Source: a virus
DNA: 21,449 nt
Strand: one strand, 5' to 3'
Virus record (IMG/VR): IMGVR_UViG_3300020408_000052
Span: 1-21,449 of that record
A model generated the notes under the pieces. That model had not been told where the DNA came from and did not search any database. It saw only the letters and a list, made by a program, of their open reading frames with translations. The position numbers and the translations under genes are program-made. Of this stretch, positions 2,111-21,449 are shown one piece after another; the stretch's first letter is position 1, and each line of letters starts with the position of its first letter.

Positions 2111-2113
2111 CTA

Positions 2114-2725: not shown

Positions 2726-2744
2726 TTATGCTCCAATTTCTATT

Positions 2745-2754
2745 GTATTTATTG
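2745..2754 (-). promoter_or_regulatory. Putative T4-type late promoter box upstream of the 203-residue gene
   Basis: On the minus strand the sequence reads CAATAAATAC. It matches seven of eight positions of the T4 late promoter box TATAAATA (AATAAATA here). The box ends 19 bases before the ATG, so a transcript starting about six bases downstream would have a leader of roughly 15 bases holding the Shine-Dalgarno GGAG. An identical 10-mer lies at almost the same distance from gp6. The last codon (CAA) and stop (TAA) of the giant gene are part of the box. Promoter activity is inferred, not shown. Confidence 0.65.
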
Positions 2755-5700
2755 CGGCGGAGCCACTTCTTTTTGACGTATGAATCTTGCGATGTCATTA
2801 TCCGTCTGACTCAGTGGATCTGTGCCTTCTTGCCAAATTTTACCTTGTTTACGTATCACCACAATTTTGGCATTTGCGGCTGGTGTATTAGTAAATGTAA
2901 TCACAGGATTTACACCATCTACTGTGAATTCTGCTGACACAGTGTCATCTGCTTCAGGACTGTCCTGTCCGTTTGCTGGATTGTACTGTGAAATACTGTT
3001 TTTACGCATTCTCTTACCGCCAACAAATAATTCAAATTGATTAGCATTTGTTGGAGTAAACGAAATAGTTAATTGATTATTTGACACATCTGCTCCTGTG
3101 TACACTTCCGATACAAACTCATCTTTGTAAGGAACTGTCTGGAATCCACTTTGATCATGAACTTCTGTGTCAGCAAAGTGTTGAGTTGGTACTCCTGTGC
3201 CATATGTACCTCTTCTTAATTGTTGTAATTTGTTACCATCCTTGATCCAATATTCAATTCTTTCACCATCTATGAAAACAATGCCAGGTAAACTAGCAGT
3301 GATATTTGGTTCCGTTATTCCTGTTGCGTCTTTCAAAACAATTTCTTTGTCATACCAGTACAATGTATTTGCAAGGAAGTATTGTCTATCATTTCCTATA
3401 CGTTTAAAGTGTGTTCTGTTCATCATATCTTTGAACTGTCTGTATGCAAATTTACCAATGAAACTTGGTGCAGAGAAATGCATGACATCTATTTGATCAT
3501 TTTGACTTACAGTTCTAGAAATCAGCACTCTCATTTGATCATTTGACACAGTGTAGTCCACACTTGGTGCTAGCCATTCTCCGTTCAATGACACCCAAAC
3601 ATATTGAGCATCAACTGCCGGCTTACGTAGATAGATTACACCGTTTGTTAATTGATTGTATTGATAATAATCGTCGCTGTTTACTGTGATTGACAATCTA
3701 GCAATCACATCTGCCTGTTCTCTTTCAATGTCTGCTATGTCATGTTTACTGAACTGATAAGCAGTAACTTTTGTATTCTGTGTTGGTGCATTGGTCAATG
3801 TCAACACACCAGCGTCTGATACACTGTATTGTCCATTGTCTATGAACACATCTAAAATATCACCAACAACACCCACACCTGACTCTAGTGTAACACTAGA
3901 ATTTCCTGGATTCCATCTGTATTGTGAACTTGTCATTTCAACATCATTTAAAAATGCTCTTACGTCAGTTGAATTAATACTGCCCGGTACTATTTGCCAA
4001 TTTTCAATTTCATATTCTCTTAATGCTGAAACTTTAAATTGTTTGTACCAACCACTTCTTAACATATTGTCTCCAACTTTAACAATTACATTAGTTGTCA
4101 AAGGCTGTTGAGCAAAAGGTGTTGGCGATAATTGATAAGTTGCTGTGCTTCCGTCACCAGTGAATTCATTTTGCGTAACTTCACTGAATGATTGACTTGC
4201 ACTTTCATATACACAAATACTAATAACAGCATCTATCGCCGGCGCTGTGTTAAATCTAATTGCTACTCTATTTGGTACAGCAAATGAACTGTCTGTTTCT
4301 AAAACTTGGAATGTTGTTCTTTGACCGTTTACTCTAACAAATACTGAAATTTTGCCTGCTGTGTATTTTGCTCTTGTAACAAAGTCAACTGTTGAACCAT
4401 CACCAGTGAATGTATCTACATCTAAAACAGATTCGCCATTGTTGCCCATAGTAATAAAATTAATTTTATTGCCATTTGCAGGTGCACTGTTGAATATGAT
4501 TTTTTTGTTTTGATAATCAACTGTGAATAAATTGCTGTTGTATAATATGTTGTTTACTGAAACAAATACAGCATCAGCACTTTGCGGATAATCTGTGTAA
4601 GCAAATTCAGTTGTAGTACCATCACCTATATAATTGTAACTGTTAATTTTACTTCCAGTGTTTGAACCTCTATCATAAACTTGTATGTCTAATGTGTCTA
4701 AAACTTGTCCTGGTACAAATTCTTCAGGTCCATGCGATGACGTCGGAGTTACAAATCCATCTCCATCAACATTTATATCCTCAGCACTTAAACCTTGTGC
4801 TGTAGAGTATGCTAAATCACCACCTTGTAAAAGTGTATCAACTTCTTTAGGATCAGGTAAGAAAGAACCATCGCTTGATGATTTTCTTATTATTATTGTG
4901 TCATTGCCCGTTTCAACAGCACTGATATCGACAGTTTTTGTAGAGCCGTCACCAATGATTGTTTCCATTACAGCATTGACATTTGTTTGCTGTGGTGTTC
5001 CAAAATTTGGATCATCAACTCTTACACCATTTCTGTATACATTGTATTGTACATTGGCTTCTAATGTTTTAGAAAGTGTTAATGATAATGTACTTTGATC
5101 CAGATAGAAAACTTCGTCTTCATAACTTTCATCATACGTGTCCCACTCACCATCCATAAACGGTTGGTTGTCCCAGCCTGATTTATTTTCAAATCCTATA
5201 CTACGTACTTCTACTCCACCATAGTCTATACCTTCAATTACCTGTGCAAGTTCCTTGCCTGGCATTCCAGCAGTTGGAGAGTAATATAAATTCACTCTAT
5301 CTTGTGTTTGTAACACATCTTGATCAATCAAATATTCTATAGATATATTTGCGTTGTTTGCCGGAGGTAAAGTGAATGAAACATAACCACAATTTCTTGT
5401 GTACGATTTAGTTTCATCTACATCATTATTAAAAGTGTATTCGCTTCTTAATTTTAATTGATTGTTTACTTTTACTTTGACAGTTGTTGTACGTAAATCC
5501 ATTGGCCATTTCAATTTAAATTTCAATTGACTTGCGTTGCCAGAGAATGTTTCTGTTCTTGTTAAATTAGCAAGTAAAAGATCTCCAGTTGTTCTGTCAA
5601 ATTTTACACCAATGTGCGTTGATCTAACAAGGCTATCACCTAAAACTGCATTGGCTTCAGCAACTGTGCCTGTAGTTGATCCTAAAATGTTTACTGTTGG

Positions 5701-8700
5701 AGCACCAATGTATCCACTACCACCATTTGTTACATTTATTCTGTTTATTGTTCCATTTTTGATATATGCTGTTGCTGTGGCTCCAGAACCTCCGCCCCCA
5801 ACTATTTCTATTGTAGGTGCGTTTTTGTAAAGTGTTCCACCTTGTTTTATATTAATAGACTTGATTGAAAAACCTACATTATCTTTCCAATGTTTGTTTG
5901 GATAAGTGTTTATGTTGTCTGCATTTACTAATGCATTGTTTTCTACCCTAATATTTGAAGGAGTAATTACTCCATTGATATATCTTGGCGGTAAATCAAA
6001 ATCTGTTAAAGAAGTATTAGTAGGTTCAATTTTATCATAAGAACTTACATATTCTCTAATTTTAGATTTGTATGGTTTTATTTCTTTAATGTAATCTTCA
6101 TAGTTGGATAGATTATCATTTTTAAATGTGACTTTTTGTTTCAAGTCGCCTACATTGTGTTGTGCTGTAACAAAACTTGTTTTAAATACCCAATCATTTA
6201 GAGTATCTTCTGATAAAGCATATCTAATACTTGCAAAGAACAATTTGTTGTATTCTAATTTTAATTCTTCAACAAATATGCTGTCCCTTACAGTTTGTAA
6301 AATAATTCTTGTTTCTTCAATAGGCTGTCTATCATAAAGTTGAACGTCAAAACTATTTGAATCAAAACCTATATTTTGATTTGCGTAATCATATAATTTT
6401 GTGTTAAATTGTATTGTTCCATTCTGTCTTCCCACAGTTTTGTAATTTACTGTGTAGTCAACATCCTCTTTATTATCTACTTTTTCTAATAGTAACCAGC
6501 CACCTGTGCCCACAGTTTCAATTTTTACTATGTCGCCTATATCACACTCGATTGCGTCTAATTCATAAGTTTGTGAAACTTTTTTATCAATGGCAGTAAG
6601 TTCACTGTATCCTGTGTCATACCAATCAGCATAGTTCCAATACAATCCAACATTGTAACTTTGTATTCTTGTACGTGTCCAACCCTCTGTTGTGTAAGAG
6701 TATATTGCCCATTTGCCTGTAACAGTGCTGTCTGCATTTACTAAAGCACTGAAATCACGCACAGTGATTGTGTCTATTGACTTGTAATTACTACCTTGTT
6801 CACGTACAACAGCATTTGACACTGAACCATTTACGTCTATTGATAATTCTATTACTGCACCTGATCCTGTTGTTGTGTTTATTGTTATTGTTGGTTTAAA
6901 TTTATAACCTTTACCTGCGTCTGAAACAAATACAGATTTAATTTTTCCGTCTTCAATTGTTGGAACTAGAGTTGCTGTTTTTACTGTACCAACACCAACA
7001 AATTGTAAATCTTTTTCTGTGTCAACTGTAACATCATACAAACCTGTTGCTGTTAAAGGTGCTGGATCAGATTTTGTTAAACTGGATAAGTCTACTTCAT
7101 CTACAATTAAGTTAGAAATTAATGTGCTGTTGATTCTTTCAATTGCTTGTTTCAAAGCCTCTTGTTTGTTTTTGAACCAACTTTGTCTTGGTTGCATCAA
7201 CGTACCATATTTTAATTTTTCACTTAATTCAGGATCTGGAACGTGATTTTCTAATTCATCGTAACCAATTAAACTGTTGAACCAAACAGTTTCAATGTCT
7301 GTTGGGATTTTGCTAGACGCTAAATTTTCAGTTACTATTGCATACTCTTCATGAATATCATTATTTGTGGCTGTGTTAATCAACCTAAAGTTTATTACAG
7401 CATCTTTATCACTTATTAATCCGCCACAGTTTACAATAGCAAATTTATTTGAACCAAATATCGTTACATATTTGTATCCTTGAGATCTTGGATCTTTAAT
7501 TAATTTTGACACGCCATTTGCAGATAAACTTCTTCCTTCAATCTGCGGAATCGATGTTTTATCTTTTACCCAGTAAAAATAAACATTTGTAAACACACCT
7601 GCAACTTGATCATATTGTTTTTTCAACACAAAGTTATTAGTGTTTGAAACTGTGCCTGTTATACCTAAAGATAAACCTTCTGGACTTGCACTTAAAGTAT
7701 TCCACTGAGTAGGCGTGTATTTTGATTGTGTCCATTCATGTATATCTATTGTTGCTCCTGGAAACAATTTATTCCAGTAAGCATTATTGAAAATTATATT
7801 ACTTTGATAAGGATAATAGTATTGTGCTTTGCTTATATCCCACCATAATCTTCCTACCTGGGTGTGGTCCCAATGATTCAAATCATCTTGTTTTGTGGAG
7901 CCTGATTGATTGTAGTATGCTGGATCATATTTTGTTTTGTAGAAAATTTCTTCTTCTGCTGGCCCTGGTATTTTTCCAAAGATCGGATCAATATAATCTA
8001 GATTTGCCAAAACTTTTTTAGTTTTTTTATTGTATAAGAATACACTTTTAATTTTTGTTAAATCAGGTTGTTCTATTCCACCAACAGTTTCATGTACACT
8101 TGTCCAGTTATTTGCATCTTGAGATCTACGGAAGTCAATAGTTGTACCTACTTCTTCATCTATTAATTGTAGATTAGGCATTCCAACATAAACGTGGTTT
8201 ACATTTACTAACAAATTAGAACCAAATTGCTGTATGCTTGTATCTGCATAAGTGAATTTTTCTGCATACAATAATGTGTTATCAAATTTTTCATAAATGT
8301 GAATTGTACCTGTGTCTTGTACAATTTTTGTGAATGACGTCATTTCATTATCGAAACTTGTTGTGCCACTATCAAAAGCAGTGTTAATTGTCATGTCACC
8401 TTTTAAACTTGTTACAGCAAGAATATCTCCACTGAAAGATAAAGCATATCCAAAGTTTTCACTTACTTCTTTAGCAGGACTTGTTAAAGTTTGTGTTAGT
8501 GAATATAGACCTGAATCGTCTGTTGCTTTCTTGTAAACATAAACAGCACCCATATCTATATCAGTAAAGTCTTTTAGAGGAGATCCAACAGCGATTAATT
8601 CACCATCGCCACTGATACTGATATCAGCACCAAAATTAATTGTAGGTCCTGAATCATCTGGTGCAGTGATTGTTTGTTTGTATGTGTAATGATTGTCATG

Positions 8701-11700
8701 CAATCTGTAAACAATTATTTTTTGACTGTCATTTGAATACAATACATTTGCAATAATATTGTTTCCATTTGTGTCAATGTCAAATCTATTTCCAAACTGA
8801 ACCATGCTGTTTTGATCTAGAGTACTATCATTCTCTAATTCAACTCCAGAATCATTTGGAATGTAGCCTAAGAAATCTGTGTGCGTATTCTGTAGTTGCC
8901 AATTTGCTGTGTCAAATGCACCAGCAATCATATTAGTTGTTGCTTTGTACAATTGATTGTTATACACAACTAGTTCACCTGTTTGATAAGCCACTGTGTT
9001 TTCAAATACGCCTCTGTATTGAGGATCAATACCTAACCACCAATTTTTAGTAGCACTGTTTTCTATGAAATAAATTTTGCCTGGTAAATTTGTAGTGCCG
9101 TCACCTTCTGCACCAATGTACGCAACAGTTTCACTGCCCACTGTTCTAATTTTAATCCTAGAACCAAATCTTAATCCAGTGGCGGCGTCAGGTATGCTGT
9201 AACCACCTGCAAAACTAAATTGTCCACTAGTTTCTTTTTTGTACACAAGGAAACAACCTTGGTTAGTGAACGCACTCTGTACACCTTCGCCTATTGGAAT
9301 GTTGTAAACTTGTATCCAATCTCTATTGACACTGCTTGGTGTGTTTGCAGAAACATTAATACCATCCAATGTTTGTTCGTCCCAAGTCCAATATTCAATA
9401 TCTCTTCCAAAGTATTCTGTGATTGTGCCTGAGAAGTTAATTGGTGCTGTGTGTTCAAACACTAATAAATTACCAATTATTCCTGGAGGCATATTGCTAT
9501 CTGTAAATGCTGTTTGTTCAATATTACCTAACAATCTATTTGGTGTACCTACAACTGTGATCGTTCCATTGAAGCCTGCATTGGAACCTTGTACAAATGG
9601 CATACCATTGCCTGATAAATTTTTGATCCATAATCTATATTTTTGCAATCCTGTATATTGAATTGCCGCCACTGTACCTTCTCCACCAAAGCCTGCTGTT
9701 TGTGTGTAAGTAGTATCACATCTGACAACGTCACCAACTGTTGGCACATAGAAGTTTGCGTTATTGTCCGGTTGTGAGTCAACATCAACATAGCCTTCCC
9801 AAACATCATTGATTGTTTTTAATCCGTTGGTGTCAGCATTAGAAATATTCAATCCTGGGAAAGTGTATCTGTTGTTTGACACAGTGTTAAACCAAACATT
9901 GATCTGATCACCTGCCTGTTTGCCTAGTGCATGATAACTTGTTTGAACGTCTGTTCTGATAAAATACTTGTTACTTAACACACTGACTGGCGAACTGTTT
10001 GCCTGCCAACTGTTTGTGCTTTGATCCACATAGTAACTTTGTGAATAAGACAGCATACCGAACTCAGCATTATAAACTGGACCTTGCGGACTGATAGGCA
10101 TCCATGGTATCTCTAATGAGTTATTGAAATGGCTGATTGTTCTTGTTATACCTTGTCTTACAATGTCATATATTACCAAGTGATTAGATGTATCTGCACC
10201 TAAATCTGTTGAAACTGCTGTTGGGAAGTCAACTCTCCACCAGCCGCCTAGGTGATTGTAATCTTCTGTGATCACTCTGTCATAGGCACCTATTTCTAAA
10301 TTTCCAAAATTGATTGAGTCTGAAGTAGAAAATACACCTTGCACATCTTTCAAATAGATAAGAGTTTTTGTTCCAACTTTGTTTACATAAACTACTGTTC
10401 CTTGTGCTGTATCTGTTGTAAGCACATTACCAACCACAGGATCAGTCAATGTTATATCAACTTTAAGAATTTCATCAATTTTTTCAACAATAGGTATTGC
10501 TTGTCCTGTGAATATTTCATTGCTGATTGTTGATACATTAATATTTTCTCCAAACGGTCCTTTTGGATCCTTTTGATAATTGTTTCTGTCTTGGTTATAA
10601 TCTGATGTGAAACTTAAATAATCTAGATATAACTTGTCACCAATTTTTGTGCCGTTGTATTGATCAGCACTTGCTCTTATTAAAAGGTGATTTGTTGTTG
10701 TGCCTGTGTGTACATAATCACCTATTAACATATTAGTGATTGCTGAGCCTGTTGCTTCGTTGTATAAACCCGCGGCATCAAAAGTTGTAAAATCTACTGA
10801 AGGATCTGCACCAATAATTTGATTAGTTGCTCTCCATAATTGTTTTTTGTATTGAACAATATTTCCTGTTGCATAATTTTGTGTGTCAACAAATTGTCCT
10901 TTGTATTCTGTTTTTAGATTGCTGGCATCTGGAGCACCAACTAAAATGTAATCACCTTCTGGGGAAATTTCCATTGCTTGTCCAAATTTACTGTTTGAAC
11001 CAAATAAATCTGTCTGCTGATAGATAGGATCTACAGTTGGTGATTGAATTACTTGTATCAGTCTTAATGTAGCACTTTCAGTTCCTCTACTGAACACATA
11101 AATTTGTCCATCATTTTCATCTGGTTGTCCTACTAATAGTATTGTGTTATTTTTGTTTGCTGATAATACTTGTCCAAAACTTACATCACCTGAATCTGTT
11201 GTTGAACTTACTGTGTCATGCTGTTTGAAAACAAATTTATTGTTTACAATTTTCCATTTACCATCATTACTTTGATCTACCCAGAATTTTTCATCATCTT
11301 TTAATCCTTGATCAACAATTCTTTGATTTATTTCTGCAATATCAGACACACGACTTGTAACAAGTCTTCTTACAAATCCTACTGCTGTTGTAATAGATTG
11401 GAATCCTGTTTTTGGTTCGCACACAATTTGATTTAAAGATACTGAACTACATTTTAACACATAGTCAGAACCATTTGCATTCACAACAAAAATCTCTCCA
11501 ACTGCCATTTCAGCATTGTTTAAAGTGGTAACTGTGATTCCATTAGGACCTGCAACAACACTTGTGATTGTTTGATTAGTATTTGAATATCTAAACACAT
11601 TCCATGAATTGTTGTAGTTTCCTACCCAAACATATTGTCCATCTTTTAATGTTGTTAAAGTTGTGCTTGTCAATAAATCATCATAACTGCCAACTGTAAC

Positions 11701-14700
11701 AGATATGTCAATTGGATTTACTGGTCCTGCAGTTTTGATGTATGTGTTTTTGTCATATTTTATAGGAAAAGGATTGTGTGTGTAATTTTCAGGTTTTAGA
11801 TACACCTCGCCTGATTGTATTCTGTACACTAGATCTGTTTCTGCTCCTGTGCCTGTATCTGTTAATTCGACTGGTTGAGGATTCAATCTTACTTTGGATT
11901 CATCCAGCACATATTCTATCTCGTCGAAAGTATCCGAAGCACCGTATTGTCCTTTACGTATGCCCCACTCTTCATAGAAATCAACGCTTTCTTTGTCCGC
12001 ACTTGCTAAAGCGTCAAACAATTTGCTTAATGCATTTGATGTTCCTTTTTCTCTAATGTAACCTTGATAAAATTTGTATTGAGCAACATCATCATTTATG
12101 ATATTTCTTAAGTACTCTCTTGGTTGATAACCAATCAAGTGTTGTGCCATTCTTTGTTGGTCAGTATCAAAGTTGTCTGTATCTAAATCGTAAAAGTCAG
12201 CAAACTGGTTTGCTTTGTAATCAAAGTTTGCATACAGAGAAGGTTGTGGGCGGTTGTCTAATCTACGCCAGTCTTCTTCATTAAATTTTTCTACTGCTTT
12301 TAATTTACTATTTGCTGTGTAATAAAATTGTTTGTGTTTGACCACATCACTCATAGCATATTTTGTAAATGGTGCCCATTCTTGTATTTTCGCTTCATCA
12401 AATATAAAGCCTGGAGATACTCCACTGCCGTCCCACTCAGTCAAGTATCCTAATACTTTGATTCTATCTTGTTTGTAACCACTTGCAGGATCAAAAATTA
12501 AGTCATTGAAAGTGGTTGTGTTATCTATGACACAAACGTTTTCTTTTTGCACCACAGGAATCTTGCAGAAATATATTCCATTTATAGTGTCTTTGAGCAG
12601 TAATTCAAATACATTTCTATCCCTTGTAACACGCACAAAGTTTTTGTCTAAATTGTTTCCGTCTTCTTTTAACACGCCGTAAGAATAAAAATTATCCAAC
12701 ACATTATCAGTAGTTGCATTTGGAGTTTCTAAGACTAATCTCTCTGCAGATGGACTCAAACTAATCACACTGCCGGCGTCCCAATTTTGTGTAGTCCAGT
12801 ATAAAAATTCACGCACTGACAATTGCCAGTTAGAAACTTTTTCTAAACTCTTTTCAAAATCATTAAATTTAAAACCTTTTGATTTTAGGTATTCTCCATA
12901 TCCTAAAATCACATCAACCACTTCTTGAACAGTTTCGTAGGTTGTGCCATATGCAACTGTTGAAACATCTGTGCTGAATTGTTTTCTTAGTTGTGCAACT
13001 GCTCCTCCTTCGATAGGCAATTCAACAAGTTTTACAAATTTTGATAGGTCGAAAGTGCTTTCTGAAAGGTGTTGTGTCTCTACTGCATAAAATTCATTGG
13101 CATATTTTACATATTGTCCAACATCATATCTTTTGTTTTCTGCCCAATTTACATAAGACGCACTTACTCCACCAACATTGATAGTTGGATCAGCAGTGAT
13201 TGGAATTGGAGCATAATATTTTATTACAGGATTGTTTTTGTCATAACCTTTTACAAGATATCCTGATGTAGTCTTTTCTATTATTAAAGCACTGTAAGTG
13301 ATAAGTTCAACAGCAGAACTTGTATTGTAAATTAATTTGTAATTTTCTTCAGGAACAAAAATATTGGCAGTGTTTGTAGGAGACTTACTGTCTAATACTA
13401 ACTTGAATTTGTCTTTGTTACTGAATCCTCTTATTTTAAATCCTATTTGTGCTTTGATATTTTTAATTTTTGCTTTGTAGTCTGCATAACTATTGACTAG
13501 ATTTACTTCAACAAAATCATAGATGTAGTTTACAAGTCCAGCAGTTAAGACTGTTGTTTTTTCAGATACAGCACTTGGAAATACCAAAGCGGAAGGTTGT
13601 AATCTTAAACCAGTTGAATAAACAATTTGCCCTGCATCATTTCTTTTTACTCTGCTTGTATCCCAACCTATACCAATTACTTTTGCTGGTTGGTGCAGTA
13701 AGAATGCTTTTAATATTGCAAAAGGATAATCCGAACTTCTTCTCCAAGCAGTTTCTACTGGACTGTGATCTCCAAATGCATACTTGGATTTCGTTAAATT
13801 TAAAACTACCTCTCTAGCATATCCACTTTCAAAAGGACTTCTTATTGTGCCTGTGCTTGTAACAGGAATATAAGAAGTTAGATTTGGTCTTTTGTATTTG
13901 TCTAGTACAACTAATTTTTTGTTAGGTTCTCTTACAACGCCTGCTTCCATATCTTTCCATAGCACAAGATTTTCTTTTGTGTACGGAGCCGGACCGTAAG
14001 TTGTTTCCCACCATGTTGGTTTTTCTGTGAAACCTATTATTTCCCATGGAGTGATATTGGGTCTATCTGTGCCAAGTAAATTTTTGTATATGCCTCTCCA
14101 ATGTCCTAATAATTTTTCACCTGTTGGTGACACAGCATTAGAATAATTCCAGGTCAAACTATTTGTATCTTGATGATATGTGTTTGCTGTATAATCTTCA
14201 TTACCAATAAATGTTGCCCATTCATTGTAATTTTGTAACAACACAGTGTTTATTGAATCATGATTAAACAAGTTTGTTCTGCCTGCTTTAGGAATAAAAG
14301 CATTGTAGTCTAACAAATCACTATTGTAAGTCGTCTTAATATTATTGTAAATTCTTTTTTCTAATTCTAGTATTAAATCATCTCTATAATCACCGTATGC
14401 TTTTGTAATACTACCGTCGTGTCCTTGTATAACATCTACAGGAGTGACTAAAGTGGTGTCGCTGTATTTTTGTGGAATATATTTTGGATATAAACCTAAT
14501 TTTGTTGGCGTTGCTGGAATGTGAGATCCGTTTGATGTGTCAAACTCTCTGATAACAATTTCATCATCAAGTGTAAGTGTTTTGGTTACGTTCACAAATC
14601 CATTTGTAAAAACATAATCTTGTCCGTGTAAAAGTTGTTCACCATTGTGGTACACGTTTACTGCTTGAATTGATAAACTGTTTAAATCAAAGTTTGTTGA

Positions 14701-17442
14701 TATTGCATAGAATTGACTGTTTGTGTCTAATACTTTGTGTGTTGTTGATTTAAATGCACCAATACCCAACATATCTGTTTGGAAAAATGCAGATGATTCT
14801 GTGTAATTTTTATTAATTGCCTCTAAAACTTTGTCCACTGCAACATCCACATTGCCATCAAAACCTAAGTTTGTTGCTTTTTCAACAAATGCTCTTTTAA
14901 ATCTTAAGTATGCTTCTTGACTGTATGCAATAGAATTTACTACGTGAATATCTTTTCTTAACAAAGTGTACATTGCAAGACTGAGTGGTCCTGAATGTTG
15001 TAAAAATTTTCTACCAAATTTTGTTGCATTTGGAAAATCTCTTAAATTACTTGCACCTGGAGTAACGCCTTCAATGCCTGTAAGTTCATTTGTGATTGTT
15101 TTAACATGGTCAGTTACTTGTCCAAGAGTAAAAGATGAAATATTATCATTTAGTGTGTTACTTTCTAAATTGTTAGGAAACTCATAGTGTCCATTTGTAT
15201 TTTTAATTGAGGCACTAGATGTTTTAATTACAACCACATCACCCACTGTTAATGCCTGACTGAAATTAATGTAAGCAACTGAATTAATTCTGTTTATTGT
15301 GTAATCTGTAAGTTCTTTTTTAATTTGGTTATTGACAAAAACTTTCACAGTTAAATCATTAAGGTCTCCGCTTTTATCATACACATCAACAGCAAAGTCG
15401 TTTGTTTGTCTTGCAGTTACATCGTATAATCTTTCAACTCTTTGATAACTCTCAGTGTCTGCTTTTTCCCAACCATTTTGTAAACTGTTTGTTGTTCTGT
15501 CAGTGAATTTTTTTAAAAATGCTGTGTCAGTGTTTACAGTTGTTTGTGTGTCGTCACCATATACAAAACTATCATTTACTAGATTAAAATCAAAAGTGAT
15601 ATCACCAATGTTGTTTACATTAAGATATTTTATTGGAAATCCTAATTCAGGATCGTTTGCTCCTACACCCTCTTGGTAACTAAAAACTTTGTTTCCTCTA
15701 AAACTTGAGTTGCTGTAATTTGTAGTATCTGTGTAACTGATTCCAGTTTCATCAAAAAGTTCAAACATTGGCGCTTGATTGACTGTTGTTTTTTCTTGTG
15801 TAAGTTGCCAAGTTGTTCCGTCGAACCAATAAATTTTACCTTGATTTTTTGTACCTTGAGTAACAAGCACCGTTTCATTTTCTAAACTTGTAGCATCTGT
15901 TACTTCAACTAAACTGATTTGTCTTGTTGTCGTATTGTTTTGTGTAAAATCTAAAAATTTAACCTCATAAATTTTGTTTTTCACAAGCGGATCTGTATCT
16001 GCTGTGAACATTACTTTCATTCCATTTGTAAGTTCTACGCCATCTATGTGATATCCTACTGCTCCTTCAACATCGCTCATTGCGTCTGTTGTTACAGTAT
16101 CAATTAAATTTATGTTACCTTTACTTGATGTTCCAAAGTTGTATAATTTTAATCCTGCTTCAAATTCTATAATTGGTCTTCTTGCTCTTAAAGATTGATC
16201 AACATTAGCAATCTGACCATTTGCTTTTGCACTGGCTTCAATGACAGACTTATGAATCCATCTGTTGTGTCTGCTCCAAGGATTTCTGTCTGGAGATGCT
16301 TTGTTAATGACTACATAGTCTTTATTCAGGGCGTAAGATGTCGCTGTGCCAAATCCTACAGTATCAAATTGTGTTGTATCAAATGGCACAGGAGTATTTT
16401 CTGTGTAAGAACTTACAACTTCTAAATTTTGTACATTTATTAATTGTATAGCATCACCTACTCCTTCAACATAATATTCTCCTTCTGCGTATTCAGTTGG
16501 AGTAATTGTGCCTTTGAAATTAATTTTCATTCCATTAGACAATTCTGTGCCGTCGGATAATGTGTAAGATTTTTTACCTATTAATTCTTTTGCAACATCT
16601 AGTTCACTGTTTTCATCTATAGTGTATATTTTTATTAGTCCCCAAGCATTAATGTCATTGTTTGCACCGTAGTATAACTTATCTGGTGCTGTGTCTGAAA
16701 CCGTGAATTCGATGACGCCTTTTTCAACTTTTTGTTGACTAACACCAACATTGTATATAAAGTCATCACTGGAACTTCTTGCAGTCTTAATTGTAAACGG
16801 AAGACCTTGTGCTGATATATCAAACTTGTATGTTTGACCTTTGTATAATGTTAAAGTTGGATTTACAGTTTTGCCATCTGGTGTAAAGATATAAGCATAA
16901 TTGTCGCCTTGATCACTTTTTGTAACCGTGTATGTGCTGACTACTGATCTTTGCTGACCCGTTACTGATACTGTGGATGCTCCGTAAGGTAGCCAAAAAT
17001 ATTCTCTATAATTAACAAATTTGTCCCAATTAATTTTTGGAGACCATGTGTAATATTCCTGTGCATTCAAATTGGAATGATCATCAGCATAGCCGTTTAA
17101 ATTTTTTACTTGATTAATATAGTCAATATAATCTTTGAAAAAATTAACATTACCTAATTCATCTGTCTGTGTGATTGCAGGTTCAAATTGATAATTTTGT
17201 CTATCATCATTGATGTCTTTAACATAGTAATCGTCTGCTTTGTAAGACTGTGTGTTCTTCCTACCATAATACGCAGAAATTTTTTCCAGTGTTCCGCTGG
17301 AAATCATTTGATCTAGTGTGCTGTTTAAAAATTTTTGATTGGCAGAAGTTCTAAAATACTTAGGTAGAAACTCCGCAGATTTTCTTCTGTTAGATTCAGA
17401 CCCTACTGGAACTGGAAATTCTTTCTTGTTGTCGTATGCCAT
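2749..17442 (-). CDS. Giant modular baseplate/tail structural protein, 4897 residues
   Basis: One open frame of 14.7 kb without a break. The N-terminus (RKSAEFLPKYFRTSANQKFL, then LNAQEYYTWSPKINWDKFVN near residues 125-145) and inner blocks resemble a large structural protein I recall from marine T4-like phages. These blocks are PTWWETTYGPAPYTKENLVL near 1140, MAQHLIGYQPREYLRNII near 1760, GRLWWDISKAQYYYPYQ near 3200, PRQSWFKNKQEALKQAIERI near 3425 and FIDGERIEYW...RRGTYGTG near 4730. Between them are four CBM5/12-like aromatic modules (about 1431-1472, 1688-1726, 2180-2222, 2809-2849), seven FG-GAP-like motifs (2089-3072), two glycine-rich GSGY repeat blocks (about 3487-3558 and 3857-3934) and GDGST beta repeats (about 4164-4440). 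No signal peptide, membrane helix or protease motif is seen. The ATG overlaps the gp6 stop (TAATG), with a weak GGA five bases upstream. Position after gp6 matches T4 gene 7 (1032 residues), suggesting a wedge role for part of it; glycan binding is inferred. An exact function cannot be assigned. Confidence 0.88.
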   Translation of the reverse strand: MAYDNKKEFPVPVGSESNRRKSAEFLPKYFRTSANQKFLNSTLDQMISSGTLEKISAYYGRKNTQSYKADDYYVKDINDDRQNYQFEPAITQTDELGNVNFFKDYIDYINQVKNLNGYADDHSNLNAQEYYTWSPKINWDKFVNYREYFWLPYGASTVSVTGQQRSVVSTYTVTKSDQGDNYAYIFTPDGKTVNPTLTLYKGQTYKFDISAQGLPFTIKTARSSSDDFIYNVGVSQQKVEKGVIEFTVSDTAPDKLYYGANNDINAWGLIKIYTIDENSELDVAKELIGKKSYTLSDGTELSNGMKINFKGTITPTEYAEGEYYVEGVGDAIQLINVQNLEVVSSYTENTPVPFDTTQFDTVGFGTATSYALNKDYVVINKASPDRNPWSRHNRWIHKSVIEASAKANGQIANVDQSLRARRPIIEFEAGLKLYNFGTSSKGNINLIDTVTTDAMSDVEGAVGYHIDGVELTNGMKVMFTADTDPLVKNKIYEVKFLDFTQNNTTTRQISLVEVTDATSLENETVLVTQGTKNQGKIYWFDGTTWQLTQEKTTVNQAPMFELFDETGISYTDTTNYSNSSFRGNKVFSYQEGVGANDPELGFPIKYLNVNNIGDITFDFNLVNDSFVYGDDTQTTVNTDTAFLKKFTDRTTNSLQNGWEKADTESYQRVERLYDVTARQTNDFAVDVYDKSGDLNDLTVKVFVNNQIKKELTDYTINRINSVAYINFSQALTVGDVVVIKTSSASIKNTNGHYEFPNNLESNTLNDNISSFTLGQVTDHVKTITNELTGIEGVTPGASNLRDFPNATKFGRKFLQHSGPLSLAMYTLLRKDIHVVNSIAYSQEAYLRFKRAFVEKATNLGFDGNVDVAVDKVLEAINKNYTESSAFFQTDMLGIGAFKSTTHKVLDTNSQFYAISTNFDLNSLSIQAVNVYHNGEQLLHGQDYVFTNGFVNVTKTLTLDDEIVIREFDTSNGSHIPATPTKLGLYPKYIPQKYSDTTLVTPVDVIQGHDGSITKAYGDYRDDLILELEKRIYNNIKTTYNSDLLDYNAFIPKAGRTNLFNHDSINTVLLQNYNEWATFIGNEDYTANTYHQDTNSLTWNYSNAVSPTGEKLLGHWRGIYKNLLGTDRPNITPWEIIGFTEKPTWWETTYGPAPYTKENLVLWKDMEAGVVREPNKKLVVLDKYKRPNLTSYIPVTSTGTIRSPFESGYAREVVLNLTKSKYAFGDHSPVETAWRRSSDYPFAILKAFLLHQPAKVIGIGWDTSRVKRNDAGQIVYSTGLRLQPSALVFPSAVSEKTTVLTAGLVNYIYDFVEVNLVNSYADYKAKIKNIKAQIGFKIRGFSNKDKFKLVLDSKSPTNTANIFVPEENYKLIYNTSSAVELITYSALIIEKTTSGYLVKGYDKNNPVIKYYAPIPITADPTINVGGVSASYVNWAENKRYDVGQYVKYANEFYAVETQHLSESTFDLSKFVKLVELPIEGGAVAQLRKQFSTDVSTVAYGTTYETVQEVVDVILGYGEYLKSKGFKFNDFEKSLEKVSNWQLSVREFLYWTTQNWDAGSVISLSPSAERLVLETPNATTDNVLDNFYSYGVLKEDGNNLDKNFVRVTRDRNVFELLLKDTINGIYFCKIPVVQKENVCVIDNTTTFNDLIFDPASGYKQDRIKVLGYLTEWDGSGVSPGFIFDEAKIQEWAPFTKYAMSDVVKHKQFYYTANSKLKAVEKFNEEDWRRLDNRPQPSLYANFDYKANQFADFYDLDTDNFDTDQQRMAQHLIGYQPREYLRNIINDDVAQYKFYQGYIREKGTSNALSKLFDALASADKESVDFYEEWGIRKGQYGASDTFDEIEYVLDESKVRLNPQPVELTDTGTGAETDLVYRIQSGEVYLKPENYTHNPFPIKYDKNTYIKTAGPVNPIDISVTVGSYDDLLTSTTLTTLKDGQYVWVGNYNNSWNVFRYSNTNQTITSVVAGPNGITVTTLNNAEMAVGEIFVVNANGSDYVLKCSSVSLNQIVCEPKTGFQSITTAVGFVRRLVTSRVSDIAEINQRIVDQGLKDDEKFWVDQSNDGKWKIVNNKFVFKQHDTVSSTTDSGDVSFGQVLSANKNNTILLVGQPDENDGQIYVFSRGTESATLRLIQVIQSPTVDPIYQQTDLFGSNSKFGQAMEISPEGDYILVGAPDASNLKTEYKGQFVDTQNYATGNIVQYKKQLWRATNQIIGADPSVDFTTFDAAGLYNEATGSAITNMLIGDYVHTGTTTNHLLIRASADQYNGTKIGDKLYLDYLSFTSDYNQDRNNYQKDPKGPFGENINVSTISNEIFTGQAIPIVEKIDEILKVDITLTDPVVGNVLTTDTAQGTVVYVNKVGTKTLIYLKDVQGVFSTSDSINFGNLEIGAYDRVITEDYNHLGGWWRVDFPTAVSTDLGADTSNHLVIYDIVRQGITRTISHFNNSLEIPWMPISPQGPVYNAEFGMLSYSQSYYVDQSTNSWQANSSPVSVLSNKYFIRTDVQTSYHALGKQAGDQINVWFNTVSNNRYTFPGLNISNADTNGLKTINDVWEGYVDVDSQPDNNANFYVPTVGDVVRCDTTYTQTAGFGGEGTVAAIQYTGLQKYRLWIKNLSGNGMPFVQGSNAGFNGTITVVGTPNRLLGNIEQTAFTDSNMPPGIIGNLLVFEHTAPINFSGTITEYFGRDIEYWTWDEQTLDGINVSANTPSSVNRDWIQVYNIPIGEGVQSAFTNQGCFLVYKKETSGQFSFAGGYSIPDAATGLRFGSRIKIRTVGSETVAYIGAEGDGTTNLPGKIYFIENSATKNWWLGIDPQYRGVFENTVAYQTGELVVYNNQLYKATTNMIAGAFDTANWQLQNTHTDFLGYIPNDSGVELENDSTLDQNSMVQFGNRFDIDTNGNNIIANVLYSNDSQKIIVYRLHDNHYTYKQTITAPDDSGPTINFGADISISGDGELIAVGSPLKDFTDIDMGAVYVYKKATDDSGLYSLTQTLTSPAKEVSENFGYALSFSGDILAVTSLKGDMTINTAFDSGTTSFDNEMTSFTKIVQDTGTIHIYEKFDNTLLYAEKFTYADTSIQQFGSNLLVNVNHVYVGMPNLQLIDEEVGTTIDFRRSQDANNWTSVHETVGGIEQPDLTKIKSVFLYNKKTKKVLANLDYIDPIFGKIPGPAEEEIFYKTKYDPAYYNQSGSTKQDDLNHWDHTQVGRLWWDISKAQYYYPYQSNIIFNNAYWNKLFPGATIDIHEWTQSKYTPTQWNTLSASPEGLSLGITGTVSNTNNFVLKKQYDQVAGVFTNVYFYWVKDKTSIPQIEGRSLSANGVSKLIKDPRSQGYKYVTIFGSNKFAIVNCGGLISDKDAVINFRLINTATNNDIHEEYAIVTENLASSKIPTDIETVWFNSLIGYDELENHVPDPELSEKLKYGTLMQPRQSWFKNKQEALKQAIERINSTLISNLIVDEVDLSSLTKSDPAPLTATGLYDVTVDTEKDLQFVGVGTVKTATLVPTIEDGKIKSVFVSDAGKGYKFKPTITINTTTGSGAVIELSIDVNGSVSNAVVREQGSNYKSIDTITVRDFSALVNADSTVTGKWAIYSYTTEGWTRTRIQSYNVGLYWNYADWYDTGYSELTAIDKKVSQTYELDAIECDIGDIVKIETVGTGGWLLLEKVDNKEDVDYTVNYKTVGRQNGTIQFNTKLYDYANQNIGFDSNSFDVQLYDRQPIEETRIILQTVRDSIFVEELKLEYNKLFFASIRYALSEDTLNDWVFKTSFVTAQHNVGDLKQKVTFKNDNLSNYEDYIKEIKPYKSKIREYVSSYDKIEPTNTSLTDFDLPPRYINGVITPSNIRVENNALVNADNINTYPNKHWKDNVGFSIKSINIKQGGTLYKNAPTIEIVGGGGSGATATAYIKNGTINRINVTNGGSGYIGAPTVNILGSTTGTVAEANAVLGDSLVRSTHIGVKFDRTTGDLLLANLTRTETFSGNASQLKFKLKWPMDLRTTTVKVKVNNQLKLRSEYTFNNDVDETKSYTRNCGYVSFTLPPANNANISIEYLIDQDVLQTQDRVNLYYSPTAGMPGKELAQVIEGIDYGGVEVRSIGFENKSGWDNQPFMDGEWDTYDESYEDEVFYLDQSTLSLTLSKTLEANVQYNVYRNGVRVDDPNFGTPQQTNVNAVMETIIGDGSTKTVDISAVETGNDTIIIRKSSSDGSFLPDPKEVDTLLQGGDLAYSTAQGLSAEDINVDGDGFVTPTSSHGPEEFVPGQVLDTLDIQVYDRGSNTGSKINSYNYIGDGTTTEFAYTDYPQSADAVFVSVNNILYNSNLFTVDYQNKKIIFNSAPANGNKINFITMGNNGESVLDVDTFTGDGSTVDFVTRAKYTAGKISVFVRVNGQRTTFQVLETDSSFAVPNRVAIRFNTAPAIDAVISICVYESASQSFSEVTQNEFTGDGSTATYQLSPTPFAQQPLTTNVIVKVGDNMLRSGWYKQFKVSALREYEIENWQIVPGSINSTDVRAFLNDVEMTSSQYRWNPGNSSVTLESGVGVVGDILDVFIDNGQYSVSDAGVLTLTNAPTQNTKVTAYQFSKHDIADIEREQADVIARLSITVNSDDYYQYNQLTNGVIYLRKPAVDAQYVWVSLNGEWLAPSVDYTVSNDQMRVLISRTVSQNDQIDVMHFSAPSFIGKFAYRQFKDMMNRTHFKRIGNDRQYFLANTLYWYDKEIVLKDATGITEPNITASLPGIVFIDGERIEYWIKDGNKLQQLRRGTYGTGVPTQHFADTEVHDQSGFQTVPYKDEFVSEVYTGADVSNNQLTISFTPTNANQFELFVGGKRMRKNSISQYNPANGQDSPEADDTVSAEFTVDGVNPVITFTNTPAANAKIVVIRKQGKIWQEGTDPLSQTDNDIARFIRQKEVAPPQ
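3910..4980 (-). repeat. GDGST beta repeats near the C-terminus of the giant protein
   Basis: Four copies of a GDG(S/T)T motif stand at about residues 4164, 4272, 4347 and 4431. The last three are FTGDGST or YIGDGTT followed by an alternating hydrophobic strand, and two of them are followed by strands such as VFVSVNNILYN and VFVRVNGQRTTF. This is the pattern of tandem beta-sandwich repeats common in phage fibre and baseplate proteins. The copies diverge at protein level; on the DNA two share only the short stretch tcaccagtgaat. The number of repeats is a minimum from reading by eye. Confidence 0.6.
5640..6985 (-). repeat. Two glycine-rich GSGY repeat blocks in the giant protein
   Basis: Two related blocks lie at about residues 3487-3558 and 3857-3934. 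Each contains a pair of half-repeats with the pattern V-x-x-x-G-x-G-Y-x-x-x-P-T-(I/V)-x-I followed by a GSGA or GGSGA turn. Examples are VSDAGKGYKFKPTITI, GGGGSGATATAY and VTNGGSGYIGAPTVNI. Repeats of this look are frequent in marine phage structural proteins and are likely beta-structured. The two blocks are separated by about 300 residues of unrelated sequence. Confidence 0.65.
8170..11190 (-). repeat. Seven FG-GAP-like propeller motifs, split into 2 + 5
   Basis: Motifs of the integrin-alpha FG-GAP type appear in the giant protein near residues 2089 (VSFGQVLSANKN), 2153 (KFGQAMEISPEGDYILVGAP), 2758 (LRFGSRIKI, then VAYIGAEGDG), 2883 (VQFGNRFDIDTNGN), 2937 (INFGADISISGDGELIAVGS), 2996 (ENFGYALSFSGDILAV) and 3072 (QQFGSNLLVNVNHVYVGMP). 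Several are followed by a strand ending in YVF or YVY. Spacing of 54-76 residues fits propeller blades, except for a gap of about 605 residues after the second and 125 after the third. Seven motifs is the usual blade number for FG-GAP propellers. The assignment is by eye. Confidence 0.65.
8890..13150 (-). repeat. Four CBM5/12-like aromatic modules in the giant protein
   Basis: Four segments of about 40 residues share a pattern: aromatic start, Y-x-x-G-x-x-V-x-(Y/H), an aromatic pair with A, and an F-x-x-x-x-W/F end. They begin near residue 1431 (VNWAENKRYDVGQYVKYANE), 1688 (IQEWAPFTKYAMSDVVKHKQ), 2180 (FVDTQNYATGNIVQYKKQLW) and 2809 (YQTGELVVYNNQLYKATTNM). This resembles the small chitin/cellulose-binding domains CBM5/12 (ChtBD3). 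Copies three and four lie directly after the second and third FG-GAP motifs. Sugar binding is inferred from the pattern only. Confidence 0.55.
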
Positions 17443-20400
17443 TAATATCCACTGCCTCCTCCACTAGAGCCTCCTGAACTAGAACTCGTAGAACCTGTTG
17501 CACTCGAACTAGAAGCAAGTGTGCCACTTAATGAAGATGACGTAGACGTAGAACTTGTTGTCACTGTGCCAGTGGCTTTAATTTGTGCGGCTGTGACCGC
17601 ATCTATAATTTCAATATCTGAAACTTTTGCTCCACTTATGAAAATTTCATCGCTTTCTGAACTGATTTCAAACAAACTTCCGAAACTTTGATTGCCTGCT
17701 TTCGGTACAATTATAAAGTTTGAAATGTCCGGTGCTAACTCTAACATAACAAAAGCCGATAGTTCTGTAAAGTAAAAACTATCTCCAAAGTTCCAATTTT
17801 CTAAAGCAAAAAATTCATTTATTGCAGAAATCACTCTGCTTTTTATATCAGCATCATTTGTAACTTCTTCGCTATTTTTAACAATTTTAAAAGTTGCTTG
17901 TAAATCTGCACTTGCATTTTCACCAAATAACACTTTGTATTTTACAGGGTGATATATTAATGTATCACTAATTGACTTCATTGTTGATAATGAAGCATTA
18001 AAATTATTGTACAAAGAATCACTGCTTGGTAATAGAGGTGGTGTAGCAGTAACACCTGCTAACCATTGTCTAAAATCAATATCATATGTTCTTGTTAAAA
18101 CGTACATATCTATAATGTTTGTTACACTAGGATCTAATCTCGTATTGCCATCAACTGTGTGTACATATTGGAATTTTACTTTGTCTCTTCCTAAATGAGC
18201 AATGTAATTTGTTTCTTCTGAAGTTGTGTTAGTTGTTGTGTTAACCTTTTTAAATGAATTTGTATCAACAATGTAAACTATTGAACCATCAACATAATCG
18301 CCTATTGCACCAACTGAACTTTGTCTCACATAAATCATTTCTTCTGTTGCATCAACATACGCATATCTTTGAGTACCGTTTTGACCATCAATTAATTTTT
18401 GGAAAACATATTTTGATGTAATGTTCACAGTAGGAGCAACAACATCATTGAAAGCATCTGGATTATCAACTATTCCATCTTGGTCACTATCAAAATGAGT
18501 CAATTCAAGTTTTGAACTATCAATATAACCTTGTGCTGTTCTAAATTCTGTTGCAACACTAAAGTCAATATCATTAGTGAATGCTGTTGTAGTGTCTGGT
18601 TTTGTGTTAAAAGATAAAACAGATATTCTGTCTTGTAAAGTTTTTCCTGTTACTATGTTGAAATTTCTATCTACACTGTCATAGAAAAATCTAACTTCTC
18701 TTTTACTTTCAAATACATAACGCAATGATCTTGTAGCCATTGTGTATGTTGCACCATTATTTGTAAAACGCAAAATCCAACTTGAATCTAATTGTTGATT
18801 TGTTACATCACCAGTTTTACCTGTGCTAAAATCACCGTACACATTTAAATTATTTTCGTCAATAACTTGCCATGACCTTGTTGCAACGTCATATCTTAAT
18901 CCAAAATTGTTGTAAGCAAAAGTTTGATCAATAATTAAAGTTTTAATATCATTTGCAATTTGTTTAGAAAATTTAGGAAGTATTTGTGTTGCAATAGCAT
19001 CACTTGGCACCACATCATTAAATTGTATTGGTCCTGATCCTGTTCCTGGATCTGTTGCGCCATCGTTGTAAACACTTACAACAGCAGTCCATATGTAAGT
19101 TTTAGAACCTAAGTGATCAGCCGCTCCAGACATTAATGAGCCGTCTGCCATAAAATGTTTGCCTGCTGGTGCTTCAAATTTTATCATTGCACCTGGTTCA
19201 ATGTATTTCAATTGACTTGCTGTAAATCTACCCACTTGATAATCAACTGCTGAAGCAGAATCTTTTAATTTCCCTGTAGATGAATTTGTGTCTTTACTTG
19301 ATTGCACCCAAGTTGCATTTAAATCAGTTAATAATATTTTTGGAAATTTTTCTATGTAATAATTTCTAACATTTTTGTTAGCCAACATAGGTTCAATTTT
19401 GTTTATTATTACTGCTTCAATATCTGTTTGTGTGGTAAAATCAAAATTATCTACAGTTTCATTTTCTTCTTTGTAAATTACACCGTCATTGCCAAACAAA
19501 TTTGTGTTACTGTATTTTCCTGTTGCATCTATTAAATCAAAATATCTTGATATACCACTTGCTGTTCTATTAATTGCTTTTACTTTTATAATTTCTTGAT
19601 TAGTTCCTAAAGGAGCAACATTATAATCTTCAGCGGTAACCATTCTGCCTTGCGTGTAATATGTTGCTGGGGCATTAGTTTTAATATTTTCAGTTGATTC
19701 CGATGTTGTTGCATTGTCAACTGTGTATTGTAAACCTAATGTTAAAGTCATTGTTTCAGTTTGGTTATTCTGTGAAACATAATCTATATCTACAGCAATG
19801 TTCTGCATATCGTCAGGAACCATTCTTAAATTTTGATTTGCACTTGTTCTGTAATATACTCTAAAATTACCTTGTGGCAAATTTCCAAACACTCCGTCAG
19901 CAAATTTTAATTGTATTCTATCTTCTGCTCTACTTAAAACTGTGTAAATGTCTTTTATAGATTTGACAGTAGAATTAAAAATTACATTGTTTCCAACTAC
20001 ACTGTCAACTTTTGTCCATAATGTATCTTCTGCACCAGCATCATTTAATGAATATAACCAAACGTCTGTGTTGTTTATATTTCTTGCATCAATTGAAACT
20101 GATTCATTATTTGAAGGATTTGTTATTGTAAAATCTCCTTGATCCAAAACTCCTTGTCTAAAGTGGCAGAAAAATCCTGTGTTAGGACTTGAATTTCCTT
20201 TACCATCATCTCTATGAACGAAACTTAATGGCTCACTTACTTTAGGTGCTTGTTCTTGTAAACTTTCATTGTCAAATGTTGTTGATACTATTTCAAATTC
20301 TAAACTTTGTCCACTAATACTTTTTGAAAAAGTATAAACAGGCGTATCTAAAGTCGCTGTGTTGAATCTATATTGTGCAGTAGGAATAGAATCTATTGTT

Positions 20401-20930
20401 GCTGATTTAATTGGTTTTCCAAATTTTTCATTTTCGCCTAAACCTGCATTTAAAACTTTTATAAATTGTTCATACCAGTTTGCATTTCCTGAATCATTCC
20501 AAGACACAGTTTGATTTGCAAGATTTAAATTGTTGCTATCAATTATATTTTCTGTTGTTGAAATACTTGTTAATTTAAGTAAGCCATTACCTGCTTGGTT
20601 TCTTGTTGGATTGTAACTTATTAATCTTGCTAAACGTAAAACACTTTCACGTCTACTTGCTAAATCTATAAAATTTTCTCTTGCGTTTAAATCTGTTCTA
20701 AATGAAATGTTTTGTCCTAAAAAAGCAATTAAGTCAATAAGTGCAAGATACTCTGATGATTCAATGTAATCATTAAAATCTTCAGGATAATTGGACCTGA
20801 TGTATTGAATCATTGTTCTACGGATAGTATCAAAATCGTAACTTTTGAATTCTGCATTTTTATAAGATTGGTATATTCTTTTCCAATCTTCTGCTAACAA
20901 TAATCGGTTTTGTCTATCTGTAGATGCCAT
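17442..20930 (-). CDS. gp6: Baseplate wedge protein gp6 (T4-like)
   Basis: gp6 forms the inner ring of the T4-type baseplate by dimerising between wedges. The N-terminal block (about residues 49-111) has the family's conserved run: NYPEDFNDYIESSEYLALID, then FRTDLNARENFIDLASRRES and LARLISYNPTR. A Baseplate_J-like core follows, with LKFADGVFGNLPQGNFRVYY near 337-360 and GRMVTAEDYNVAPLGTNQEI near 427-445. The C-terminal block (about 1033-1088) has NWNFGDSFYFTELSAF and a GSLFEISSESDEIFISGAKV segment, also typical of marine T4-like gp6. At 1162 residues it is much longer than T4 gp6 (660). A TSP3-like, possibly calcium-binding stretch DSDQDGIVDNPDAF sits near 814-828, and the protein ends in a Ser/Thr then Gly-rich tail (about 1122-1162). 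The start has AAAGGA four bases upstream and a late promoter box 20 bases upstream. The stop overlaps the ATG of the giant gene. Confidence 0.95.
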   Translation of the reverse strand: MASTDRQNRLLLAEDWKRIYQSYKNAEFKSYDFDTIRRTMIQYIRSNYPEDFNDYIESSEYLALIDLIAFLGQNISFRTDLNARENFIDLASRRESVLRLARLISYNPTRNQAGNGLLKLTSISTTENIIDSNNLNLANQTVSWNDSGNANWYEQFIKVLNAGLGENEKFGKPIKSATIDSIPTAQYRFNTATLDTPVYTFSKSISGQSLEFEIVSTTFDNESLQEQAPKVSEPLSFVHRDDGKGNSSPNTGFFCHFRQGVLDQGDFTITNPSNNESVSIDARNINNTDVWLYSLNDAGAEDTLWTKVDSVVGNNVIFNSTVKSIKDIYTVLSRAEDRIQLKFADGVFGNLPQGNFRVYYRTSANQNLRMVPDDMQNIAVDIDYVSQNNQTETMTLTLGLQYTVDNATTSESTENIKTNAPATYYTQGRMVTAEDYNVAPLGTNQEIIKVKAINRTASGISRYFDLIDATGKYSNTNLFGNDGVIYKEENETVDNFDFTTQTDIEAVIINKIEPMLANKNVRNYYIEKFPKILLTDLNATWVQSSKDTNSSTGKLKDSASAVDYQVGRFTASQLKYIEPGAMIKFEAPAGKHFMADGSLMSGAADHLGSKTYIWTAVVSVYNDGATDPGTGSGPIQFNDVVPSDAIATQILPKFSKQIANDIKTLIIDQTFAYNNFGLRYDVATRSWQVIDENNLNVYGDFSTGKTGDVTNQQLDSSWILRFTNNGATYTMATRSLRYVFESKREVRFFYDSVDRNFNIVTGKTLQDRISVLSFNTKPDTTTAFTNDIDFSVATEFRTAQGYIDSSKLELTHFDSDQDGIVDNPDAFNDVVAPTVNITSKYVFQKLIDGQNGTQRYAYVDATEEMIYVRQSSVGAIGDYVDGSIVYIVDTNSFKKVNTTTNTTSEETNYIAHLGRDKVKFQYVHTVDGNTRLDPSVTNIIDMYVLTRTYDIDFRQWLAGVTATPPLLPSSDSLYNNFNASLSTMKSISDTLIYHPVKYKVLFGENASADLQATFKIVKNSEEVTNDADIKSRVISAINEFFALENWNFGDSFYFTELSAFVMLELAPDISNFIIVPKAGNQSFGSLFEISSESDEIFISGAKVSDIEIIDAVTAAQIKATGTVTTSSTSTSSSLSGTLASSSSATGSTSSSSGGSSGGGSGY
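17445..17567 (-). repeat. Low-complexity Ser/Thr/Gly-rich C-terminal tail of gp6
   Basis: About the last 40 codons of gp6 encode a simple-sequence tail: stretches of S and T (for example TSSTSTSSSLSG and ASSSSATGSTSSSS), then GGSSGGGSGY. It is likely disordered or a flexible linker. The same bases supply GGAGG about 13 bases upstream of the giant gene's ATG. Confidence 0.8.
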
Positions 20931-20979: not shown

Positions 20980-21420
20980 TTAATTTAGTAATCCGTTGTT
21001 TTGGTCAAAAGTTAATTTAAGTCTTTCAGAAATGTTATATTTCAAATATTCTAACTCAATTTCAATTTGTATGCCCGATTCAAATGGCGTAACAACAATG
21101 GCAGTTGCTCTAATTCTAGGGTCACTATCGATAATTGACTGTACATTGTTTTTTAATGCTACTTCCACCTCGTCTGTAAGTGGATCAAATAATATATCCC
21201 AAATAATTGTGCCAAATTCAGGATTCTCTAATTTTTCCCCTTGTCTAATGTGGAAATGATTTAATAAATCTTGCTTGATAAGACCTATATCATATAAAGC
21301 AAATGAAGAGTTGGCTTCATTCACTGTGCTGATACCTCTGTACATTTTCTGACTAGGTGGCTGTGTTTTGAACTCTTTGCCTGCTACCACCGTCTCTTTA
21401 TATAATTTTTTCTCTGCCAT
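20980..21420 (-). CDS. gp25: Baseplate wedge protein gp25 (GPW/gp25 family)
   Basis: gp25 is a small wedge protein that anchors the sheath initiator region to the baseplate; the family (Pfam GPW_gp25, PF04965) also includes the TssE/HsiF sheath-baseplate proteins of type VI secretion. The 146 residues are close to T4 gp25 (132). The family core runs from about residue 38 to 135: LYDIGLIKQDLLNHFHIRQG, then GEKLENPEFGTIIWDILFDP (61-80) with the acidic/aromatic pattern typical of the group, SDPRI (99-103) matching its DPR element, and a final amphipathic beta hairpin. The ATG at 21420 is the only sensible start, as the next Met is at residue 26 and closer to the core. No convincing Shine-Dalgarno is visible in the 29 bases before it, which is unlike the other genes here. 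The gene is followed by a 49-base gap holding a late promoter box and then gp6, a wedge neighbour. Confidence 0.94.
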   Translation of the reverse strand: MAEKKLYKETVVAGKEFKTQPPSQKMYRGISTVNEANSSFALYDIGLIKQDLLNHFHIRQGEKLENPEFGTIIWDILFDPLTDEVEVALKNNVQSIIDSDPRIRATAIVVTPFESGIQIEIELEYLKYNISERLKLTFDQNNGLLN

Positions 21421-21449
21421 AACAATATTTACTTTATTTTTAACCCCCT

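Follow-up and report, generated by a model that had tools for sequence, protein, structure and literature searches.

A predicted integrin-type seven-bladed beta-propeller with nested insertions in a giant baseplate-region protein of a jumbo-like phage

Do seven FG-GAP-like repeats that are spread over about a thousand residues of one giant viral protein belong to a single beta-propeller, and what are the domains that lie between them? The question is raised by IMG/VR virus record IMGVR_UViG_3300020408_000052, a stretch of 21,449 nucleotides that was analyzed whole and is referred to here as the window. The best overall explanation, to which we assign a probability of roughly 0.7, is a nested one-propeller architecture that would display inserted modules.

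Gene order and the giant protein

All of the main genes of the window lie on the minus strand (Table 1); these are genes for a gp25-like protein, a gp6-like protein, the 4897-aa protein P0001, a 203-residue protein, and a tail-collar protein. Open reading frames on the plus strand that overlap them were treated as incidental. P0001 matches PHROG 10938 ("virion structural protein"; E 1.5e-302) by a profile match over its N-terminal region, and this match together with its place after gp6 assigns it to that family. Its residues 1-1700 have relatives in RaK2-, PA5oct-, and Atu_ph07-type phages, where they also occur after gp6, and the PA5oct homolog, gp355, is annotated as detected by ESI-MS/MS. 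Homology to T4 gp7 was considered and dropped; profile A5 (residues 1-1700) gave no match to T4 gp7 in PDB sequences, and P0001 is gp7-like in position only. A match to PHROG 460 ("head closure") at 3856-3931, which sits in a repeated glycine-rich stretch, was set aside as functional evidence. The 203-residue protein (window 2114-2725; PHROG 11259, unknown function) is encoded between P0001 and the tail-collar gene.

Since the window is a fragment of a virus, P0001 might be taken for an assembly artifact or a chimeric open reading frame joining separate genes. This is refuted by the presence of the same colinear reading frame in many independent contigs of widely differing identity (L004, L006, L058, L009, and L015), full-length relatives included, and we regard its probability as negligible.

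Table 1. Features of the window, with P0001 residues where they apply
Feature	P0001 residues	Window coordinates	Strand	Basis
gp25-like baseplate wedge subunit		20980..21447	-	Pfam GPW_gp25 E 3e-6
gp6-like baseplate wedge subunit		17442..20930	-	PHROG 10646 E 8e-303; relatives include Atu_ph07, PA5oct
P0001, giant 4897-aa virion structural protein with propeller		2749..17442	-	single ORF
Weak CBM5/12-like module	1433-1467	13042..13146	-	8.5 bits; profile A5-chitinase A1 ChBD E 0.45
CBM5/12-like module before propeller	1688-1728	12259..12381	-	19.2 bits
N-terminal closing ("velcro") strand	2073-2079	11206..11226	-	predicted strand before blade 1, both models
Blade 1, four strands	2089-2150	10993..11178	-	FG motif, DSSP, profile map
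Blade 2, first half (strands 1-2, FG...VGAP)	2153-2175	10918..10986	-	
Insertion of 551 residues in blade-2 2-3 loop	2176-2726	9265..10917	-	absent or short in relatives
CBM5/12-like module, first half	2180-2218	10789..10905	-	HMM from intact relatives, 45.2 bits
Nested beta-rich region, about 480 residues, splitting the module	2219-2698	9349..10788	-	
CBM5/12-like module, candidate second half (...SSVNRDWIQVYNIPIG)	2700-2717	9292..9345	-	aligned with intact modules
Blade 2, second half (strands 3-4)	2727-2756	9175..9264	-	
Blade 3	2759-2805	9028..9168	-	FG motif, profile map, predicted strands
Second CBM5/12-like module	2809-2851	8890..9018	-	50.3 bits; Pfam CBM_5_12
Blade 4	2883-2932	8647..8796	-	FG motif, profile map, predicted strands
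Blade 5	2937-2992	8467..8634	-	Pfam FG-GAP_2 at 2922-2970
Blade 6, conserved acidic TTFD-type loop	2997-3068	8239..8454	-	
Blade 7	3073-3125	8068..8226	-	FG motif, profile map, predicted strands

Evidence for a single propeller

The initial annotation had reported seven FG-GAP-like motifs with a gap of about 605 residues between the second and the third, and both observations hold. FG-x-x-[hydrophobic] motifs begin at residues 2089, 2153, 2759, 2883, 2937, 2997, and 3073, with 606 residues separating the second from the third, and Pfam matches were obtained for FG-GAP_2 (E 2.8e-10) and CBM_5_12 (E 1.4e-6). A propeller profile of 462 columns, built only from relatives of 830 aa or less, none of which has the insertion of the window, scored 376 bits on the P0001 region versus -23 +/- 9 (maximum, 7) for 100 shuffles. 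On stretches of P0001 wholly outside the propeller the same profile scored -28 to -3, and on two stretches holding blades 1-2a only it scored 15 and 32. FG opens all seven window blades, and an aromatic-Gly pair is found, depending on the blade, in 106 to 185 of 185 relatives. The proline of the GAP/Cage motif is present in four of the seven window blades (1, 2, 5, and 7), not in all as the integrin-type criterion asks. There are no strict DxDxDG calcium loops in the window blades, with one DxDxNG in blade 4, and a relaxed calcium-loop motif matched 24 times in 7 x 185 blades. Repeated acidic words of the TTFD type (..TAFDSGTTSFDNEMTSF..) are found in the blade-6 2-3 loop and, as judged from the consensus, are conserved in most relatives.

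Homologous regions numbering 185, the window and its relatives from viral contigs, were gathered for comparison. The shortest relatives, among them L233 (459 aa) and L249 (462 aa), consist of seven unbroken FG-GAP repeats, and the blade-2 insertion is absent or short in these two as well as in L303, L076, L072, and L060. The predicted model of L249 (pLDDT, 90.0; pTM, 0.87) has seven four-stranded blades and a leading strand, and Foldseek aligned it with integrins alpha-M, -X, -4, and -5 and with G-beta; the matches span more than 400 columns, and their E values reach 1e-12. By sequence alone, profile A4 matched integrin alpha-6 (E 1.7e-8), alpha-4 (1.1e-6), and alpha-L (2.2e-6). Because insertion-free relatives have seven contiguous blades and a confident fold, and because blades 1 to 7 of the window all align in order to those of L249, it is well supported by these comparisons that P0001 residues about 2073-3125 would form one integrin-type seven-bladed beta-propeller whose blade 2 is split by the insert.

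The position of the cut follows from where the chain leaves and returns. P0001 exits the propeller after ...YILVGAPDASN (residue 2175) and re-enters it at NQGCFLVYKKE (about 2727); the exit is strand 2 and the return strand 3 of one blade, which places the insertion in the 2-3 loop of blade 2 and thus divides the blades 1.5 + 5.5. A division of 2 + 5 had originally been proposed, which describes the grouping of the motifs (two and then five) but not that of the blades, as the 551 inserted residues lie inside blade 2. The accompanying idea of one propeller with domains in its loops is upheld by the uninterrupted relatives and the order of the blades, with the amendments that the cut falls within blade 2 and that the insert is itself nested. 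CBM-like modules had been placed after blades two and three, and both are recovered, the former as the first half of a module only.

The model of the window itself (mean pLDDT, 83.8; pTM, 0.70) has strands at all expected blade positions. Its Foldseek matches to integrins are poor as superpositions overall (rmsd, 11-13 Å; TM to target, 0.3-0.4) and do not bridge the insert, and mean-field coevolution, applied to all 185 sequences (effective number, 127) and to 94 window-type sequences (effective number, 52), was dominated by gap patterns, was uninformative across the insert, and gave no direct contact signal there. Both results could be held to favor two unrelated or incomplete folds, in which blades 1-2a and 2b-7 do not meet and no seven-bladed disc exists. 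The poor superposition would also arise if the matching covered the contiguous 5.5 blades only, and it speaks neither for nor against a closed ring. Against two folds are the uninterrupted relatives, in which the seven corresponding blades follow one another in identical order and for which a propeller is modeled with confidence, and the fact that the halves of blade 2 are strands 1-2 and strands 3-4 of one blade; we consider two separate folds very improbable. We infer that the chain of the window closes around its insert as one propeller.

A module inside the blade and a region inside the module

In L060, L055, L068, L293, and other relatives, the blade-2 loop is 64 to 72 residues long and constitutes a complete CBM5/12-like module, and the nested region of about 480 residues is absent from these four. 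L036, L059, and L060 align to the window protein at 2209 and at 2698 with only about 10 residues between. In window-type relatives, by comparison, the first half of the module and its last strand region (SSVNRDWIQVYNIP; TSDNRDWEPAYYIP in L060) flank the approximately 480 residues. Scored as a whole, the split module of the window reached 41.8, whereas 300 shuffles averaged 17.5 +/- 5.5 and the highest of them reached 38.3. Its second half alone scored 20.5 versus 6.9 +/- 4.0 (maximum, 22.0), and the assignment of that half by itself is made with moderate confidence. The split-module pattern recurs across the long insertion class (mean score, 52). Comparison of relatives shows the layers to be nested, with a CBM5/12-like module interrupting the 2-3 loop of blade 2 and about 480 beta-rich residues interrupting that module. 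A Pfam search of this inner region gave no match. Within it (window 9349-10788), a segment of about 75 residues is duplicated (VG..V.T.TA.GTV.YV...IYLK.V.G), the two copies matching each other with an hhalign E value of 3.6e-10.

As a whole protein, P0001 passes the Pfam CBM5/12 cutoff (28.6 versus 26.2 bits). The second module (2809-2851) probably sits in the loop leading from blade 3 to blade 4, the alternative being the 3-4 loop. Among PDB sequences it matched phage tail spike and tail fiber chains with E values of 7-8e-4 (tail spike 8fqc and tail fiber 9rkv), and chitinase was among the matches of the CBM module only weakly. In L018, a tandem CBM5/12-like pair (open reading frame residues 2929-2973 and 2983-3027) occupies the loop where the window has one module, which suggests a change in copy number. 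Taking propeller, opened blade 2, split module, and second module after blade 3 together, we consider the whole architecture highly probable.

History of the insertions among relatives

Across the 185 regions, the insertion in the 2-3 loop of blade 2 measures 0 to 14 aa in 36, 15 to 44 in 9, 45 to 89 in 25 (CBM type), 90 to 299 in 14, and 300 or more in 101, and relatives bear insertions in other loops as well. A quick FastTree phylogeny was made from residues 1-1700, which exclude the propeller; its branches to the outgroup of three jumbo-phage giants are long. On this tree, insertion class changes 8 times versus 20.7 times in shuffles. The three outgroup giants group together, a clade of 28 rows has the propeller without the blade-2 module, and the clade holding the window contains CBM-only, intermediate, and nested forms. 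The simplest reading of these sequences puts the propeller before the module and the module before the inner region, with some losses (L036, L050, and L076).

The alignment of PA5oct gp355 (L311 11974-23547) with P0001 runs to 1880 and resumes at 3132; about 315 residues lie between, in place of the whole propeller, and no FG-GAP repeat was detectable in them. The propeller is missing there and is therefore an optional module, one that, by these alignments, has been added to or lost from the PHROG 10938 giants. In the giant of Sinorhizobium phage Phosso, the protein adjacent to gp6, no FG-GAP blades were detectable in the part examined. A separate Phosso protein, XYS97267.1 (L309 8863-18630), has about 40 FG-GAP-like repeats, perhaps several propellers in a row. 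The short-form profile was also run against bacterial genomes; it returned 29 pattern matches, none of them a relative.

Such natural intermediates can be arranged in order, from no propeller through the bare propeller and the propeller with a module to the module with a stretch inside it, and would serve as a series of steps for the growth of very large phage proteins through insertion.

Possible functions of the propeller and its modules

We propose that the propeller would serve as a rigid tail-tip platform on which modules that contact glycans or receptors are held and varied. The 2-3 and 4-1 loops would place both modules on one face of the propeller. Display of putative binding modules at the baseplate, suggested by the position of the gene, the virion evidence for the homolog, and the CBM-type modules, would be the likeliest function, and we put its chances at about even.

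Phage tail proteins likewise carry CBM5/12-like modules, whose role there need not be host binding. A serious rival to display is a role as structural adaptors, in which the propeller and its inserts would join neighboring baseplate or fiber proteins and add girth to a very large baseplate, the CBM5/12-like modules contacting other proteins and not host sugars. The giant gene adjoins gp25 and gp6, the module is optional and clade dependent, and the nearest PDB matches of the CBM are phage tail spike and fiber chains rather than chitinase, all of which would suit an adaptor. Assembly interfaces are usually conserved, however, whereas the content and position of the inserts vary strongly among relatives, and CBM-type modules recur in several loops; an adaptor role accordingly appears possible but less probable than display.

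If display is correct, the nested architecture hints at how jumbo-like phages could assemble and diversify their host-contacting parts, and it makes the propeller a testable candidate for the recognition of hosts by uncultured jumbo-like phages of aquatic habitats.

Comparison with known systems

The PHROG 10938 giants of the RaK2/PA5oct/Atu_ph07 type share with P0001 residues 1 to about 1880, the part from about 3107/3132 onward, and the order gp25-gp6-giant, and differ from it in that PA5oct gp355 and the examined part of the Phosso giant are without detectable FG-GAP blades. Viral FG-GAP proteins with propeller-like structural matches are present in BFVD, from uncultured Caudovirales, cyanophage S-TIM5 (H6WG31), and Atu_ph07 ("hemagglutinin"); at 393 to 473 aa, those named are much shorter than P0001. 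In the literature collection searched, no paper on FG-GAP propellers in phage baseplates was found. The P0001 modules resemble CBM5/12 modules, such as the chitinase ChBD and those of phage tail spikes, by sequence, and the blade-2 copy differs in being split.

Integrin-type propellers, which also occur in bacteria, have four antiparallel strands per blade in a closed ring whose N-terminal strand completes blade 7, and carry DxDxDG calcium loops in blades 5-7 in metazoans and in all blades in bacteria (PMC3192720). P0001 resembles the integrin alpha propeller in its seven FG-GAP-like repeats, its predicted four-stranded blades, and a predicted strand before the repeats that would fit the last blade. 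Unlike integrins, it lacks conserved DxDxDG loops and sits in a phage baseplate-region protein. Lacking the calcium loops and having the GAP proline in four blades only, the propeller is classed here as integrin-type in fold and similarity and not as a member of the integrin family.

In alpha-I integrins, the alpha-I domain is inserted between blades 2 and 3, directly after a conserved proline (PMC12422189). P0001 likewise has a large domain inserted near blade 2, but inside the blade, in its 2-3 loop, instead of at the blade 2/3 junction, and the insert is a CBM5/12-like module with a nested region instead of a vWFA domain. The parallel is one of the same fold and a nearby site. In a more tentative reading, for which we put the odds slightly below even, this family of jumbo-phage-like baseplate proteins would use an integrin-type propeller as a general docking disc that has accepted domains into its loops time after time, one layer within another (propeller, CBM5/12-like module, further region), diversifying contacts with the host; by analogy it would be the phage counterpart of the integrin alpha-I insertion.
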